Below, piece by piece: positions 1 through 22,132 of a stretch of DNA of 25,623 bases (its first letter is position 1; every line of letters starts with the position of its first letter). The translations under genes were made by a program, and so were the position numbers. The notes under the pieces are model-generated. The model was not told the DNA's origin. It saw nothing but the letters and a program-made list of their open reading frames with translations, and ran no database searches. This stretch comes from a virus, in IMG/VR virus record IMGVR_UViG_3300021142_000164, positions 1-25,623 of that record. The stretch is one strand, 5' to 3'.

Positions 1-179
1 TCAGGTCTGACCTGATACCAGACCTGATTCCAGACCCGATACCAGACCTGATCCCTGACCTGATTATAGACCTGATCCCAGACCTGATTCCTGACCTGAT
101 TATAGTCTTGATTCCTGATCTGAATCAAGACCTGATTATAGACTTTAACCATTGCTATATCAATACTTTTCCTCACCAT
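1..179 (-). CDS. x-Q-V-x tetrapeptide-repeat small protein, partial at left edge
   Basis: Reading from ATG at 179, the protein begins MVRKSIDIAM and then becomes an almost pure tetrapeptide repeat of the form [N/D/Y]-Q-V-[R/W/Y], encoded by degenerate 12-bp units such as aatcaggtctgg. It stays open to the window edge (59 codons), so its end is not visible. The start codon lies inside the last codons of the upstream ORF (173-355): the string ATGGTGA holds the last W codon and stop of one ORF and the ATG GTG of the next, which suggests translational coupling. The N-terminus MV[K/R]..ID and the repeats match the plus-strand ORFs at 6494, 7760, 7981 and 8190. The function is unknown. The in-frame repeats and shared termini argue that it is translated. 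Confidence 0.6.
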   Translation of the reverse strand, partial: MVRKSIDIAMVKVYNQVLIQIRNQDYNQVRNQVWDQVYNQVRDQVWYRVWNQVWYQVRP

Positions 180-355
180 CTTAGATCTTTCTTCATCTGT
201 TCCCTGATCTGCCACATGGCCCGCTTCCAAACATGAATTTGGATTGGACTATAGACTTGATACCAGACCTTAGTATAGATATGCCCACATGCTTGATTCT
301 GAACCTGTTTATCGACGTGCCATCTGGACACTTGCTTAATAACATTTTGTCTCAT
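173..355 (-). CDS. Small protein ending in DLRW, repeat-ORF family
   Basis: A 60-residue ORF beginning MRQNVIKQVSRW and ending KKDLRW. The same frame is open further upstream (to 541), but that part overlaps the end of the 405-755 gene and its terminator. The ATG at 355 is preferred because GAAGAG lies about 7 nt upstream and because the family features (K-Q-V, W-Y-Q-V, terminal DLRW) begin here. It contains degenerate Q-V units and is rich in W, Q and K. The next member (1-179) starts inside its last codons through ATGGTGA. No known domain is recognised. It is placed with the plus-strand DLRW family because of the C-terminal motif and the identical overlap arrangement. Confidence 0.6.
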   Translation of the reverse strand: MRQNVIKQVSRWHVDKQVQNQACGHIYTKVWYQVYSPIQIHVWKRAMWQIREQMKKDLRW

Positions 356-4578: not shown

Positions 4579-4587
4579 ACTAATCAT

Positions 4588-4963
4588 ATCAATACGTTAG
4601 TGCTAACCCATTGATTTTATTAAGAAAATATTTTCAACTTTTTTAAAAAAAATATTTCCCAATTATATCAACACGTTATGTGAGAAACGATGCTAGAGGT
4701 TTCTAGGCTGTATAAACCCACACTTAGCATGCTTAGTATCGTTAGAATTGGGCACTTCCGGCTAACGTATTGATTCTATTAGTATTCTCTGGCTTCGACC
4801 TATAGCCTAACGTATTGATATGATTGGAGAATTTTGAGAAATTCCCAGGAACGTCGACGAGGTCGAGGTGCTAACCTATTGATTCTATTAGAACGAAAAA
4901 AGGTTTAAAAAATTTACTTTTTTATTCCCATTCATATCAATACGTTAGTGCTAACCCATTGAT
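4588..4963. repeat. Cluster of 12-bp motif TAAC(G/C)(T/C)ATTGAT in both orientations
   Basis: Copies on the plus strand: 4604-4615, 4763-4774, 4808-4819, 4872-4883, 4952-4963. Inverted copies (ATCAA.ACGTTA): 4588-4599, 4667-4678, 4936-4947. Two pairs form identical 28-bp imperfect palindromes with a GTGC centre (4588-4615 and 4936-4963), placed just upstream of the -35 boxes of the two divergent promoters. No gene is seen in 4544-5007. Long A/T tracts (about 4615-4660 and 4892-4925) flank the cluster. This looks like multiple binding sites for one protein: an operator array, or origin iterons beside AT-rich unwinding DNA. Confidence 0.8.
4686..4743. other. Possible structured stem-loop in the control region
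   Basis: Nested inverted repeats: AACG (4686-4689) with CGTT (4740-4743), ATGCTA (4690-4695) with TAGCAT (4725-4730), and GGTTT (4698-4702) with AAACC (4714-4718). It lies in the middle of the gene-free repeat region. It could be an untranslated RNA element or an origin hairpin; only the complementarity is visible. Confidence 0.4.
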
Positions 4964-4972
4964 TTCCTTGGT

Positions 4973-6389: not shown

Positions 6390-6500
6390 ATGTTTGTTTC
6401 CAAGTATGGGGAAAAGTCAACGAAGGTGTTTTTGATCATAGAACAAGTCATATTTCAATTTGAAATATTTGATCAAGTTAGGGATGATCTGAGATGGTGA
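6390..6500 (+). CDS. Short repeat-family ORF ending DDLRW, possibly frameshifted remnant
   Basis: A 36-residue frame MFVSKYGEKSTKVF...EQV...FDQVRDDLRW. TGAGG lies close before the ATG. The C-terminal half has the family signature (E-Q-V, D-Q-V-R, DDLRW) and the stop overlaps the start of the next member (6494) through ATGGTGA. A second frame, 6323-6463, starting MMAFTITTFL, contains the related-looking FQVWGKVNEGVF and breaks off where the first frame picks up the family pattern. A one-base change near 6440 would join them into a 58-residue protein. This may therefore be a decayed or frameshifted copy. The function is unknown. Confidence 0.45.
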   Translation: MFVSKYGEKSTKVFLIIEQVIFQFEIFDQVRDDLRW

Positions 6501-6694
6501 AGAATAAGATTGGTAAAATCAGGTATCAGGTCTGGGATCAGGTCTATATTCAGGTCGGCGATCAGGTCTGGAGTCGGGCGGGGTATGGCGGGAGTCGGGT
6601 CAGATATCAGGTCAGTGATCAGGTCTGGAATCAGGTCAGTGATCAGGTCTGGGATCAAATATTTGATCAGGTCGAGGATGATCTAAAATGGTGA
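6494..6694 (+). CDS. x-Q-V-x tetrapeptide-repeat small protein ending DDLKW
   Basis: A 66-residue protein with N-terminus MVKNKIGKIRYQVWDQV, a body of 12-bp-encoded units [D/Y/N/S]-Q-V-[W/S/Y], a short glycine/arginine interruption (WSRAGYGGSRVR) and the end VEDDLKW. The start overlaps the last codons of the upstream ORF (ATGGTGA). The next micro-ORF (6688) starts in the same way inside its last codons. The shared ends and in-frame repeats support translation. No domain is recognised. From memory, similar tetrapeptide tracts (SQLW/DQVW type) occur inside DUF6745 proteins; the neighbour at 6770 is DUF6745-like. Confidence 0.65.
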   Translation: MVKNKIGKIRYQVWDQVYIQVGDQVWSRAGYGGSRVRYQVSDQVWNQVSDQVWDQIFDQVEDDLKW

Positions 6695-6769: not shown

Positions 6770-7627
6770 ATGATTACGGAACTTACCAAGGAACAGCAGG
6801 ATCAGATGCCGATCTACCGTGACAAGTGGATTGACATTGGTCTCTCTACTGAGACGATTGATCGTGATGCTGCTGTTGCAGCATTGAATATGGCTTATCA
6901 GGCTGCAGATCTTGCTCCTCCCAAGACGGTTTTGTTTGCGTCTGGTCCCAAGGATATGGTTCGGGTATTTCGTGAGACTTTTCCCAACGCTACTTGGGAC
7001 GAATTCAATTCCAATATCATCTTCGGTGGTCACGAAGCTGACTGGGCTTCTTATATTGACTACTTCCAGGAAGTTGTTGGTCTTGACCTTAACAAGGCCA
7101 ATGGATTGATTGAACTTGCCAAGAGTTCGGGTTGGGTCTGGGTTTCACAGGATCTTGCCATTATTATGGATCGTCCTTCTCATATTCGTATGGATGAGAA
7201 CAATGTTCTTCATGCAGAGGATCGTCCAAGTGTTCTCTATCGTGATGGCTTTGCCGTTTATAGTTGGCATGGTCTTCGTGTTCCTCGTGAATGGATTATG
7301 GAAAAGGAAAAGCTCACTGCTCAGAAGGCCTTGAGTCAAGATAATATCGAGATGCGGCGTGCAGCATGTGAAATTGTTGGATGGAGCAAAATTCTTGAGG
7401 ATCTAAACTATTCTGTTGTTGAAAAGGACGAGGACGAACAGATCGGCACTCTCGTTGAGGTTGATTTGCCTGATGCCGGTAAGGAAAAGTTTTTGATGGT
7501 CAAGTGCGGGACTGGTCGTGATTTTGCAATCCCAGTACCTCCTGATATGAAGACTGCTTTAGAAGCCAATGCCTGGACTTTTGGTCTCAATCCGGAAGAT
7601 CTTCGTGAGCTCGAAGTTCGTACCTGA
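6770..7627 (+). CDS. DUF6745-like protein lacking internal repeats
   Basis: A 285-residue protein recognised by its family pattern: an N-terminal LTKEQQDQMPIYRDKW (residues 5-20) and IGLSTETIDRDAA, a DWASYIDYF element (91-99), GWVWV (121-125), then LHAEDRPSVLYRDGFAVY (147-164), WHGLRVP (166-172) and a closing FGLNPEDL. Many members, as I recall them, carry long SQLW/DQVW tetrapeptide tracts between the N-terminal helix region and the WASYIDYF element. Here that segment (about 60-90) is non-repetitive, while stand-alone repeat ORFs flank the gene on both sides. The biochemical function is unknown. It has its own promoter (6704-6732) and an AAGGAA ribosome site. Confidence 0.75.
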   Translation: MITELTKEQQDQMPIYRDKWIDIGLSTETIDRDAAVAALNMAYQAADLAPPKTVLFASGPKDMVRVFRETFPNATWDEFNSNIIFGGHEADWASYIDYFQEVVGLDLNKANGLIELAKSSGWVWVSQDLAIIMDRPSHIRMDENNVLHAEDRPSVLYRDGFAVYSWHGLRVPREWIMEKEKLTAQKALSQDNIEMRRAACEIVGWSKILEDLNYSVVEKDEDEQIGTLVEVDLPDAGKEKFLMVKCGTGRDFAIPVPPDMKTALEANAWTFGLNPEDLRELEVRT

Positions 7628-7790
7628 GACTGTAAAGGATCACATCTTTAAATCATGGGACTGTGGCCTCCTCATAAGTGATAGTGCCTATGAGGAGGTT
7701 ACTTCATTGAGAAATGATGTGATGATCAAAGTCTATTGGAATTTTAGTGGTGATCTTTTATGGGCAATGATGGATCAGTTGGAATTGTAA
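7569..7790 (+). CDS. Possible degenerate repeat-family ORF after DUF6745-like gene
   Basis: The open frame runs from an ATG inside the DUF6745-like gene. A more attractive start is TTG at 7707, eight bases after the strong Shine-Dalgarno GAGGAGG (7692-7698), giving 27 residues ending LLWAMMDQLEL. That end resembles the C-terminus of the ORF at 8190 (VMNKIWWDVTG, LLWEQI.IDLKW), so this may be a diverged family member without the DLRW end. The Shine-Dalgarno lies in one arm of a perfect 10-bp inverted repeat. Whether it is translated is uncertain. Confidence 0.35.
   Translation: MPGLLVSIRKIFVSSKFVPETVKDHIFKSWDCGLLISDSAYEEVTSLRNDVMIKVYWNFSGDLLWAMMDQLEL
7667..7698 (+). promoter_or_regulatory. 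Perfect hairpin burying a Shine-Dalgarno
   Basis: CCTCCTCATA (7667-7676) and TATGAGGAGG (7689-7698) are perfectly complementary around a 12-nt loop. The 3' arm holds the ribosome-binding sequence GAGGAGG. No U-tract follows, so it is not a classical terminator. A translational switch is plausible. Confidence 0.55.
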
Positions 7791-7987
7791 AGAGTGATAT
7801 TAACAAAGCCAAATGGCAAGTCCGGGATAAGCACTGGATTTATACGAATGAACTGATCATAAATCAGGTTTGGGATCAGGTCAGAAATCAGGTTTGGGAT
7901 CAGGTCAGAAATCAGGCCTATAATCAGGTCTGGTATCAGATCTTGGATCGGGGCTGGGATCAAATTGGAGATGATCTAAGATGGTGA
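7760..7987 (+). CDS. x-Q-V-x tetrapeptide-repeat small protein ending DDLRW
   Basis: A 75-residue protein. A non-repetitive head (MGNDGSVGIVKSDINKAKWQ) is followed by seven or so units of the type [N/D]-Q-[V/A]-[W/R/Y] and the end WDQIGDDLRW. The start lies inside the preceding frame (7569-7790), and its end overlaps the start of the next member by ATGGTGA. The body is encoded by recognisable 12-bp DNA repeats, aatcaggtttgg and variants. The head differs from the MVK..ID start of its relatives. No known domain. Confidence 0.65.
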   Translation: MGNDGSVGIVKSDINKAKWQVRDKHWIYTNELIINQVWDQVRNQVWDQVRNQAYNQVWYQILDRGWDQIGDDLRW

Positions 7988-8196
7988 AGAATAGTATTGA
8001 TAGCGTCAGGTATCAGGTCTGGGGTCCGGTCAGGTATCAGGTCTTGCATCAGGTCAGGGATCGGGTCTGGGGTCCGGTCAGGTATCAGGTCAGGGATCGC
8101 GTCTTGAATCAGGTCTTGCATCAGGTCAGGTATCAGGTCAGGGATCGCGTCTTGAATCAGGTTGAGGTTCAGATTAAAGATAATCTAAGATGGTGA
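7981..8196 (+). CDS. x-Q-V-x tetrapeptide-repeat small protein ending DNLRW
   Basis: A 71-residue member. It starts MVKNSIDSVRYQVW, continues with the most regular repeats of the cluster (units such as R-Y-Q-V, L-H-Q-V, R-D-R-V, L-N-Q-V), and ends VQIKDNLRW. Higher-order duplication is visible: the block VRYQVRDRVLNQVLHQ recurs in part as VRYQVRDRVLNQVE, showing recent in-frame expansion. Both ends are linked to neighbours by the ATGGTGA overlap. The pattern predicts either a regular helix/coil or a solenoid-like stack of aromatic and Val positions every four residues; which one cannot be told from sequence alone. Confidence 0.65.
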   Translation: MVKNSIDSVRYQVWGPVRYQVLHQVRDRVWGPVRYQVRDRVLNQVLHQVRYQVRDRVLNQVEVQIKDNLRW

Positions 8197-8360: not shown

Positions 8361-8428
8361 AAAAAAACTATACTCGTCAAATTTGGAATCCTATTTGGAG
8401 TCAAGTTATAGAAGATTTGAGATGGTAA
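8354..8428 (+). CDS. 24-residue minimal family member ending DLRW
   Basis: The full frame is MVEKNYTRQIW followed by NPIWSQVIEDLRW. It is the shortest complete member: start MV[E/K], W-rich centre, one S-Q-V unit and terminal DLRW. The start overlaps the upstream stop within ATGGTAG. The chain ends here; the following ATG (8422) gives only five codons. The tmRNA promoter begins eight bases later. Confidence 0.5.
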   Translation: MVEKNYTRQIWNPIWSQVIEDLRW

Positions 8429-8435
8429 TTTTTTG

Positions 8436-8466
8436 TTGACAATACCATTTAAATGGTGTATAAATA
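8436..8466 (+). promoter_or_regulatory. Strong promoter for tmRNA/gp32, sigma70 plus late-type box
   Basis: TTGACA (8436-8441), 17-bp spacer, TATAAA (8459-8464). The -10 region extends to TATAAATA (8459-8466), the exact T4 late promoter octamer, so the site could serve host sigma70 early and the phage late sigma later. The expected start near 8471 fits the beginning of the tmRNA acceptor piece. Confidence 0.85.
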
Positions 8467-8478
8467 TAAATGTTGCTG

Positions 8479-8492
8479 TTGATTGCAATCAA
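8479..8492. repeat. Perfect 14-bp palindrome TTGATTGCAATCAA
   Basis: Lies 13-14 bp after the -10 box, at the start of the tmRNA acceptor transcript. It could be an operator or a small hairpin at the acceptor 5' end. Confidence 0.5.
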
Positions 8493-8673
8493 ATAGACTT
8501 GCTGAGACGGGAGTGCGACTCTCCCCACCTCCACCATAAGCACACGGTATGTCAGAACACTGGATGCAAGTCGTGTGTTTATGATGGGGGTGACTAGGTT
8601 CGATCAGCTGTGGTAAGGGTTGAGGTAGGCAATGAGTAAGACACGACTCACAATCAGTTCAAAAACTATAAAT

Positions 8674-8718
8674 GCCAACGATAATGTTGCATTTGAGGGA
8701 ACTGCCCTAGCGGCATAA
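8674..8718 (+). other. tmRNA tag reading frame ANDNVAFEGTALAA
   Basis: From GCC at 8674 the frame encodes ANDNVAFEGTALAA and stops at TAA 8716-8718. The ANDN start and terminal A-L-A-A are typical of proteobacterial degradation tags read by ClpXP. The middle, VAFEGT, differs from the FAEEFAV of common alphaproteobacterial tags. Confidence 0.9.
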
Positions 8719-8762
8719 CCTCATTGGGTATGGGTTCCACCTAGAAACAGAACGGGCCCAAT

Positions 8763-8804: not shown

Positions 8805-9716
8805 ATGAATTCTTTTTCTGCACTAAAATCTTCTTCTAAGAGTTCCTTGGAGAAGTTGACACAAGAACTTTCAAAGCTAAATTCTGGTACTGAATCATCT
8901 AAGGATACTCGCTTCTGGTATCCCAATGTTGATAAGGCAGGTAATGGATTTGCTATGATCCGATTCCTACCTCCTTCTGCTAATGAAGATGTTCCATTCA
9001 TTCGTATGTTTGAACATGCTTTCAAAGGCCCAACTGGACTTTGGTATTTTGAAAATTCTCTAACTACTATCGGCAAGAATGATCCTGTCGGTGAATTGAA
9101 TTCCGTTCTTTGGAATCAATCATCTGATGAAAATTCACCTGGTCGTAAGCAGGCACGAGAACAAAAGCGTAAGCTAAGTTATATCTCAAACATTTATGTT
9201 ATCCAAGACTCTGCCAATCCAGAGAATAACGGAAAGGTTTTTCTCTTTAAGTATGGCAAGAAAATCTTTGATAAGCTAAATGAGGTCATGAATCCTCAGT
9301 TTGAAGATGAAAAGCCAATGAATCCTTTTGACTTCTGGGCTGGTGCTACATTCAAGCTCAAGATTCGGAATGTTGAAGGGTATCGCAATTATGATAAGTC
9401 AGAATTTGCAACACCTGGCCCTCTATTTGATGATGACGATGCTATGGAGAAGGTTTGGAATCAGCAACATTCTCTGCAAGCATTCCTTGACCCTAGCAAC
9501 TTCAAGAGTTATGAAGAACTCAAGAAGAAGCTTGATAAGGTTTTGGGACTTGATGATGCATCTAAGCTTACAAAGGCTCGGACAAAGACACCTGAGCCTG
9601 AGGATGATGAACTACCATGGACACCACCTAAGGTTGAACGTGCGGCAGTTCAGTCTTCTACGTCAGATGATGAAGATGATGACTTAGAATTCTTCAAACG
9701 TCTTTCAAAGGACTAA
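8805..9716 (+). CDS. gp32: gp32-like single-stranded DNA-binding protein
   Basis: A 303-residue homologue of T4 gp32, which coats ssDNA in replication, recombination and repair. A basic/Ser-rich N-terminus (cooperativity region) is followed by RFWYPNVDKAGNGFAMIRFL (about 37-56), FIRMFEHAFKGPTGLWYFEN (about 66-85) and the core F.FGKKIFDKL / PFDFWAGATFKLKI elements, ending in an acidic tail (DDEDDDLEFF) used in T4 for partner contacts. The T4 zinc ligands are largely missing: a His is kept, but the three Cys are absent, as in other zinc-less marine homologues. GAGG precedes the ATG. It shares the transcript start region with the tmRNA and is closed by the terminator at 9722-9747. Confidence 0.95.
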   Translation: MNSFSALKSSSKSSLEKLTQELSKLNSGTESSKDTRFWYPNVDKAGNGFAMIRFLPPSANEDVPFIRMFEHAFKGPTGLWYFENSLTTIGKNDPVGELNSVLWNQSSDENSPGRKQAREQKRKLSYISNIYVIQDSANPENNGKVFLFKYGKKIFDKLNEVMNPQFEDEKPMNPFDFWAGATFKLKIRNVEGYRNYDKSEFATPGPLFDDDDAMEKVWNQQHSLQAFLDPSNFKSYEELKKKLDKVLGLDDASKLTKARTKTPEPEDDELPWTPPKVERAAVQSSTSDDEDDDLEFFKRLSKD

Positions 9717-9721
9717 TAAAG

Positions 9722-9747
9722 AAAGCCCTGGGGAAACTCAGGGCTTT
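9722..9747. terminator. Bidirectional Rho-independent terminator
   Basis: GCCCTG (9725-9730) pairs with CAGGGC (9739-9744). The stem extends inward over two more pairs to a GAAA tetraloop (9733-9736) and outward as AAA/TTT. U-rich tracts follow on both strands. It separates convergent gp32 (plus) and the 662-residue late gene (minus). Confidence 0.92.
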
Positions 9748-9756
9748 TCTTTTATC

Positions 9757-21362: not shown

Positions 21363-22132
21363 TGACAGATTTATCAGATAATTTCAATGCAAAACATCCG
21401 GATTCCATTTTTGCAACGACATATCCCTACAATCAAGCAACAATTACCAGAAGCGGTCATGAATTCCATATCAATGATGCAGATAACAATCAATCGTTAA
21501 AAGTTGCACATACGGCAGGAACATATGTTGAAATCGACAAATTTGGTAACTGGACCAAGACTGTTGTAGGAAAAGCATACGACTATTATAAGGATGGAAT
21601 TTCCGAAACAGTTGATGGTCATAAAGATGTGAAGGTTGCTGGTGTTCTAAACACAAACGTCGATGGTTCAATGAATGAACAGGTAAACGGAAATAAGTAT
21701 GTAGGTATCTCAGGGAATCTTCAGACTGGTATCGGCGGTCACAACTATGTTCATACAGAACTAGATATGCATGAAACGATTGGTGGTGATTACTCTACTA
21801 GTACTGAAGGCTCTAAATATGAGAATATAATACAGAATTCTGTTACTAATATCAATGGCGTAAAGGCTGATATTCTTAAATCTGATTGGTTTGTTACTTC
21901 ATCTGGTTCTGTTGAATTGAATATGACAGGTTCTTTTCATATCAAATGTAAAAATTTTGTTATTGATGCAGAATCTATTACATTCAATACACCAAATGGT
22001 CCATTTACTATCAATTCAAATTCCATTGCACTTAATACTCCAAATGGTCCTTTTACTCTTGTGTGTTCAACTGGAAATACTACTTCTTCCGGTGTATACA
22101 GTATTACAGGTTCACCTTTCAATCATAATTAA
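21362..22132 (+). CDS. gp5 C-terminal-type beta-helix spike protein
   Basis: A 256-residue protein of the trimeric beta-helix kind. It starts with ATTYPYNQATITRSGHEFHI (about 18-37), then repeating short strands with Gly/Asp/Asn turns: SETVDGHKDVKVAG, NTNVDGSMNEQVNGNKYVGI, TGIGGHNYV. These resemble the V-x-G-x-x-x-x-x octads of T4 gp5C and VgrG spikes. The C-terminus has two near-identical turns, FNTPNGPFTI and LNTPNGPFTL. It starts on the last base of the gp5-like stop (TAATG), so the pair is coupled. It would form the membrane-piercing needle below the gp27-gp5 hub. Confidence 0.85.
   Translation: MTDLSDNFNAKHPDSIFATTYPYNQATITRSGHEFHINDADNNQSLKVAHTAGTYVEIDKFGNWTKTVVGKAYDYYKDGISETVDGHKDVKVAGVLNTNVDGSMNEQVNGNKYVGISGNLQTGIGGHNYVHTELDMHETIGGDYSTSTEGSKYENIIQNSVTNINGVKADILKSDWFVTSSGSVELNMTGSFHIKCKNFVIDAESITFNTPNGPFTINSNSIALNTPNGPFTLVCSTGNTTSSGVYSITGSPFNHN

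Follow-up and report, generated by a model that had tools for sequence, protein, structure and literature searches.

Why would a phage carry a gene for ribosome rescue of its own? The question is raised by a locus in IMGVR_UViG_3300021142_000164, a 25.6-kb virus contig that was analysed over its whole length of 25,623 nucleotides (the window). From the letters alone, the locus had been read as a phage-encoded permuted two-piece tmRNA of the alphaproteobacterial type. We consider it probable that the phage maintains a functional tmRNA that supplements host trans-translation during infection, in a model that combines an early/late promoter, host factors and the recycling of ribosomes.

A permuted tmRNA gene in a virus contig

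Positions 8472-8762 (+) represent an intact circularly permuted two-piece tmRNA gene, as seen with covariance models and ARAGORN. The covariance search gave the strong match that the sequence-only reading had expected: RF04321 (tmRNA_permuted) scores 107.4 bits against a gathering threshold of 47 (E = 2.2e-20, 8472-8718), and RF01849 (alpha_tmRNA) 79.4 bits against 50 (E = 2.8e-20, 8419-8762), both full length and untruncated. These two are the sole gathering-level matches when the whole window is scanned with cmscan. ARAGORN, run independently, reports a permuted tmRNA whose tag is ANDNVAFEGTALAA*. The identification made from the letters holds, and the record is a virus contig. Permutation had also been taken as a hallmark of alphaproteobacteria; the type does match, but exclusivity does not hold, as permuted tmRNAs are found in beta/gamma and cyanobacterial lineages too (PMC9004378).

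The architecture can be read directly from the letters, with the acceptor half and its encoded CCA situated 5' of the coding half and a spacer between them. The acceptor piece (8472-8536, +, approximately 65 nt, with a putative 5' end; ARAGORN, cmscan) carries a T arm at 8509-8525 (GGGAG-TGCGACT-CTCCC), with a 5-bp stem and a 7-nt loop, followed by the 3' strand of the acceptor stem, CACCTCC (8526-8532). This strand pairs at all seven positions with GGGGGTG (8586-8592), the 5' strand, as had been proposed. The third pair, G8588·U8530, is the alanine identity pair G3·U70, and discriminator A8533 (A73) completes the alanine identity set; directly after CACCTCC, ACCA (8533-8536) consists of this discriminator and the encoded CCA that ends the piece. 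The 49-nt spacer (8537-8585), presumably removed on maturation, folds as a hairpin at 8537-8581 (-16.1 kcal/mol, z = -3.2, with 0 of 200 shuffles equally stable), which bears out the idea of a spacer hairpin joining the halves. A 3' hairpin of the locus has a stability no better than shuffles (z -0.75). The coding piece (8586-8762, +, approximately 177 nt, its 3' end taken from RF01849) includes the tag reading frame (8674-8718, +; ARAGORN), with the alanine resume codon GCC, the sequence ANDNVAFEGTALAA with its hydrophobic ALAA end, and a stop. Pieces of 65 and 177 nt, with predicted mature ends, agree with the 65 and 175 nt anticipated earlier. The long connector helix is aligned in both models with several non-standard pairs, its covariation lying outside the pair counts given below.

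Could such an RNA be a decoy or inhibitor that titrates SmpB or AlaRS away from host trans-translation? There is a precedent in phage DS6A, where the RNA has no tag and consists of the tRNA-like domain only, and a similar RNA inhibits tmRNA (PMC4131195). However, the coding piece in the window is whole, with its tag frame and stop intact, and the tags of relatives stay open, which makes a decoy highly improbable.

Conservation of pairs

Do the helices show compensatory change in relatives? This had been set beforehand as the test of the structure. Pieces were located by sequence anchors alone (the TCCACCA-like end, GGG...TCGA and an upstream GAC), pairing was not used, and pairs were counted afterwards. 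The set consists of 21 distinct phage tmRNAs, four of them from named isolates; its metagenome members come from gp32-related contigs and are mutually related, and one relative without CCA (L085) was left out.

Compensatory changes were found. Both sides change at 8 of the 12 pairs, and cells with double changes number 53, compared with 13.2 in shuffles. In the acceptor and T stems, 98.8% of cells are paired vs 75.4 +/- 1.8% when shuffled and 45-59% in slid controls. The acceptor stem is paired at 100%, with variants such as GGGCCAG/CTGGTCC, GGGCTGG/CCAGTCC and GGGGATG/CATCTCC; the three invariant end pairs are uninformative here, because the GGG and TCC ends are set by the anchors. G3·U70 and ACCA are invariant in 21/21. 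Chance as the source of the tmRNA match was considered and ruled out by the covariance scores, the shuffles and the slid controls.

The phage and its likely host

By its gene content, the window contig is that of a T4-like phage. It carries genes for a gp59 helicase loader, a gp33-type late regulator, a gp32 ssDNA-binding protein and a gp2-type end protector, as well as for head closure, tail tube and gp5-, gp6- and gp25-type baseplate proteins. Caulobacter phage Cr30 is the closest isolate by gp6 (38%); Rhizobium, Pelagibacter and Sinorhizobium phages come next, and an alphaproteobacterial host is therefore likely. DNA similarity of the window to isolate phages is too low for a host call, and no phage isolate matched the window tmRNA over most of its length.

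Several other features of the window deserve mention. A DUF6745 protein is encoded at 6770-7627 (+; E 2.7e-35); its isolate matches are in Microcystis phages, a mycobacterial prophage and an environmental phage, with none in alphaproteobacterial T4-like relatives. A family of short proteins with a 12-nt (4-residue) repeat, approximately NQVWDQVx, is found at 3-230 (-) and at 6494-6694, 7760-7987 and 7981-8196 (+), with flanks extending to 8430. The plus-strand members end in D(D/N)LRW, and a 26-nt end motif is present in six copies between 6473 and 8426; the repeat proteins matched no Pfam family at cut-off. A gene-poor stretch contains an exact 34-nt direct repeat (4584-4617 and 4932-4965) and a second repeat pair (4970-5013/5172-5215) with a promoter-like TTGACTT...ATGCATATATGATG.

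A probable composite promoter

What drives transcription of the tmRNA? Read directly, TTGACA-17 bp-TATAAATA ends approximately 6 bp before the acceptor piece. The -35-like hexamer TTGACA (8436-8441, +) lies 17 bp before TATAAA; TATAAATA (8459-8466, +) is the T4-type late promoter consensus and overlaps TATAAA as a sigma70 -10. Between them, in the promoter spacer, is a perfect 14-bp palindrome, ACCATTTAAATGGT (8444-8457, without strand), a possible operator whose placement is not conserved in relatives. In the window as a whole TATAAATA occurs three times, a count no higher than chance, and the remaining two copies (16587/16605) are divergently oriented, with head genes on one side and tail genes on the other.

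Relatives are more informative. Of the 147 metagenomic phage tmRNAs, 69 are preceded by TATAAATA, which occupies one position in almost all of them; near copies among the phage sequences inflate this and the other motif counts. This total comprises the window, 8/16 gp32-related phage tmRNAs (0.4 expected) and 60/130 found by pattern (2.6 expected), the expectations being from mononucleotide shuffles. The distance to the acceptor stem is 62-71 nt in nearly all phage cases, and only one of 62 host tmRNAs has the motif upstream. Sigma70-like pairs scoring at least 10/12 precede 89 of the 130 phage tmRNAs, vs 6.8 in shuffles, and most are co-located with the TATAAATA position, where TTGACA-16/18-TATAAT-like sites are enriched. 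In these sites T and G are favoured two to three bases 5' of the -10, and the -10 octamer is TATAAATA itself in 56 of 104 that have a -35-like element.

We read the site as a composite early/late promoter, in which sigma70 and T4 late consensus sequences overlap. The late part is the more conditional one, since TATAAA alone would serve sigma70 as a -10. A gp33-like late-promoter regulator is encoded at 1372-1602 (-; phrog_254, E 2e-14), which makes late transcription of the T4 type plausible here; gp55, the late sigma factor, was not seen in the 25.6-kb fragment. We found no published description of a composite promoter upstream of a phage tmRNA in the part of the literature covered.

The gene for the gp32-like ssDNA-binding protein (8805-9716, +) starts directly downstream after a gap of 42 nt, no terminator-like site was called between the two, and a terminator-like hairpin of 12 pairs (9721-9748, +) may close a tmRNA-gp32 unit. 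The short gap and the hairpin after gp32 make a shared transcript possible.

A composite promoter predicts a supply of tmRNA throughout infection. As it lies at a fixed distance and is rare 5' of host ssrA, when and why a phage wants its own tmRNA becomes a testable question.

Occurrence in other phages

Among 50 gp32-related virus records, 23 have a permuted tmRNA above threshold, which points to a maintained trait. Isolates with a permuted tmRNA are Methylophilales phage Melnitz, the Pelagibacter phages Mosig and HTVC008M, Rhizobium phage RHph_I1_18 and Sinorhizobium phage Phosso. There was no match in isolates Cr30, phiM12 and vB_OspM_OC, and the tmRNA thus appears dispensable in some phages. 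Pattern scans of virus contigs gave approximately 100 further phage tmRNAs with diverse tags, some of which could be host DNA; these were picked by the acceptor-stem pattern and are therefore uninformative on stem variation.

The novelty implied for a phage two-piece tmRNA was overstated. Those of Melnitz and Mosig were described in 2022, and a search of 18,146 phage genomes gave 53 two-piece forms among 133 unique tmRNA structures, 50 of them from marine/aquatic samples (PMC9004378); 79 bacteriophage tmRNA sequences have also been listed (PMC11915505). Two-piece tmRNA in aquatic phages is already known, and what is added here is the composite promoter. With the window, the large group of aquatic T4-like phages also gains an unambiguous viral ribosome-rescue RNA.

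Some relatives show unusual forms. In L085 (G043:C1:101662-101853) spacer and CCA are nearly gone, leaving CATCTCC-ACAACGAC-GGGGATG, either a decaying gene or an uncut permuted form; L084 is an intact tmRNA with an identical tag. L103/L108 (G033:C1:21160-21355, 21814-21996) and L245 represent a second tmRNA or tmRNA-like match near a first.

Host tmRNAs and origin of the phage gene

Is the phage gene a borrowed host gene? Host tmRNAs were obtained by a class-wide family search of alphaproteobacteria, as the acceptor-stem pattern was too permissive (ARAGORN called one tmRNA among the bacterial matches listed). An above-threshold permuted tmRNA is present in 174 of the 190 sampled alphaproteobacterial genomes. 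Host partners can thus be expected, and the likely host of the window phage is itself likely to have a permuted tmRNA.

A fragment of host DNA, or a decaying copy without function, might have arrived by transduction. tmRNA genes are common integration sites, and one relative, L085, is without CCA and most of its spacer. Against such a passenger are the compensatory changes in stems, the phage-type promoter upstream and the recurrence in 23/50 relatives. Phage and host genes also separate: in a quickly built tree, two label changes suffice for 150 phage and 62 host tmRNAs, vs 54 with shuffled labels, although branches are poorly supported, the hosts had been selected by score or small genome, and the window is on a long branch. 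Together these leave a passenger copy barely credible. As judged from the sequences compared, the tree argues against a recent capture of a host gene, and no more than that. Also considered was an integration-site remnant; the complete gene and the phage-type promoter rule it out, and no integrase was seen among the window genes searched.

Might alphaproteobacterial phages carry an old two-piece tmRNA lineage of their own under the composite early/late promoter, so that trans-translation is virus-controlled during all of infection and does not depend on a newly borrowed host gene? We offer this tentatively, as a possibility that we rate somewhat below even.

Possible role during infection

In the reading that we prefer, that of a phage-maintained tmRNA supplementing the host, transcription would start at approximately 8471-8472, driven early by the sigma70 RNA polymerase of the host and later by a T4-type late apparatus. 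The 49-nt hairpin spacer would be excised by tRNA-processing enzymes of the host, and pairing in the acceptor stem and in the long connector helix would keep the 65-nt acceptor piece and the approximately 177-nt coding piece together. The RNA would be alanylated via G3·U70 by host AlaRS and delivered by host SmpB to ribosomes that have stalled on broken mRNA, where the ANDNVAFEGTALAA tag would direct nascent chains to proteases of the host. The phage probably benefits because ribosomes caught on mRNAs that were cleaved during infection are recycled.

A search of 15 phage records, including three of 141-168 kb, gave no SmpB; a working phage tmRNA therefore probably uses host SmpB, but as the window is a 25.6-kb fragment, SmpB could be encoded elsewhere in this phage. 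In T4 infection, E. coli SsrA stays stable while host tRNAs are degraded (PMC9697503), which lends indirect support to a benefit from rescue. That the phage tmRNA keeps ribosome rescue active during infection is plausible.

Could the phage copy instead retarget proteolysis, with chosen (host) nascent proteins tagged for degradation, as a source of amino acids or to disable defence? This has been proposed for Melnitz (PMC9004378), and the interiors of phage tags are diverse and differ from those of host tags. However, the end that determines proteolysis, ALAA/RLAA, is kept in most phage tags as it is in hosts, and no adaptor gene was seen. Substrate choice by tmRNA is governed by ribosome stalling rather than by the tag, which further counts against retargeting, and we regard it as unlikely. 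The earlier suggestion that tagging is redirected finds no support in the window, where the tag retains the AND...ALAA pattern seen in hosts.

Comparison with known systems

The marine T4-like phages Melnitz, Mosig and HTVC008M carry permuted tmRNAs of the alphaproteobacterial type (PMC9004378), as does the window, and Melnitz and Mosig share G3·U70 and an encoded CCA with it; in sequence, the three have only a distant likeness to the window tmRNA. Their genes are located near gp33/gp59 in Melnitz and near gp33 in HTVC008M, similar to the window, but the window tmRNA differs from all three in being directly 5' of gp32. A glutamine riboswitch, as in Melnitz, was not found in the window at Rfam gathering thresholds. 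The HTVC008M tmRNA (L449, KC465899.1:145161-145370; 90.6 bits) is unannotated in its record.

Sinorhizobium phage Phosso has a permuted tmRNA with a 57-nt 3' region that is 87.7% similar to the window; its spacer is approximately 410 nt, vs 49 in the window. The Phosso gene (L447, PV764938.1:349596-350198) is likewise unannotated, and the locus has no other RNA family at gathering score.

The tmRNAs of Bxz1, Wildcat and phage G are known as one-piece forms, unlike that of the window. These mycobacteriophages (Bxz1 and Wildcat) and Bacillus phage G resemble it in that the tmRNA is phage-carried (PMC4131195).

The comparison with host ssrA that had been called for shows gene order, spacer, acceptor stem and tag form common to the window and alphaproteobacterial ssrA (RF01849; the Caulobacter two-piece tmRNA). 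The phage tmRNAs differ in clustering apart from the 62 alphaproteobacterial host genes, in a weakly supported tree, and in having a phage promoter at a fixed place. For Melnitz an early promoter was proposed by its authors (PMC9004378), whereas in the window the TATAAATA late motif overlaps a sigma70-like site.
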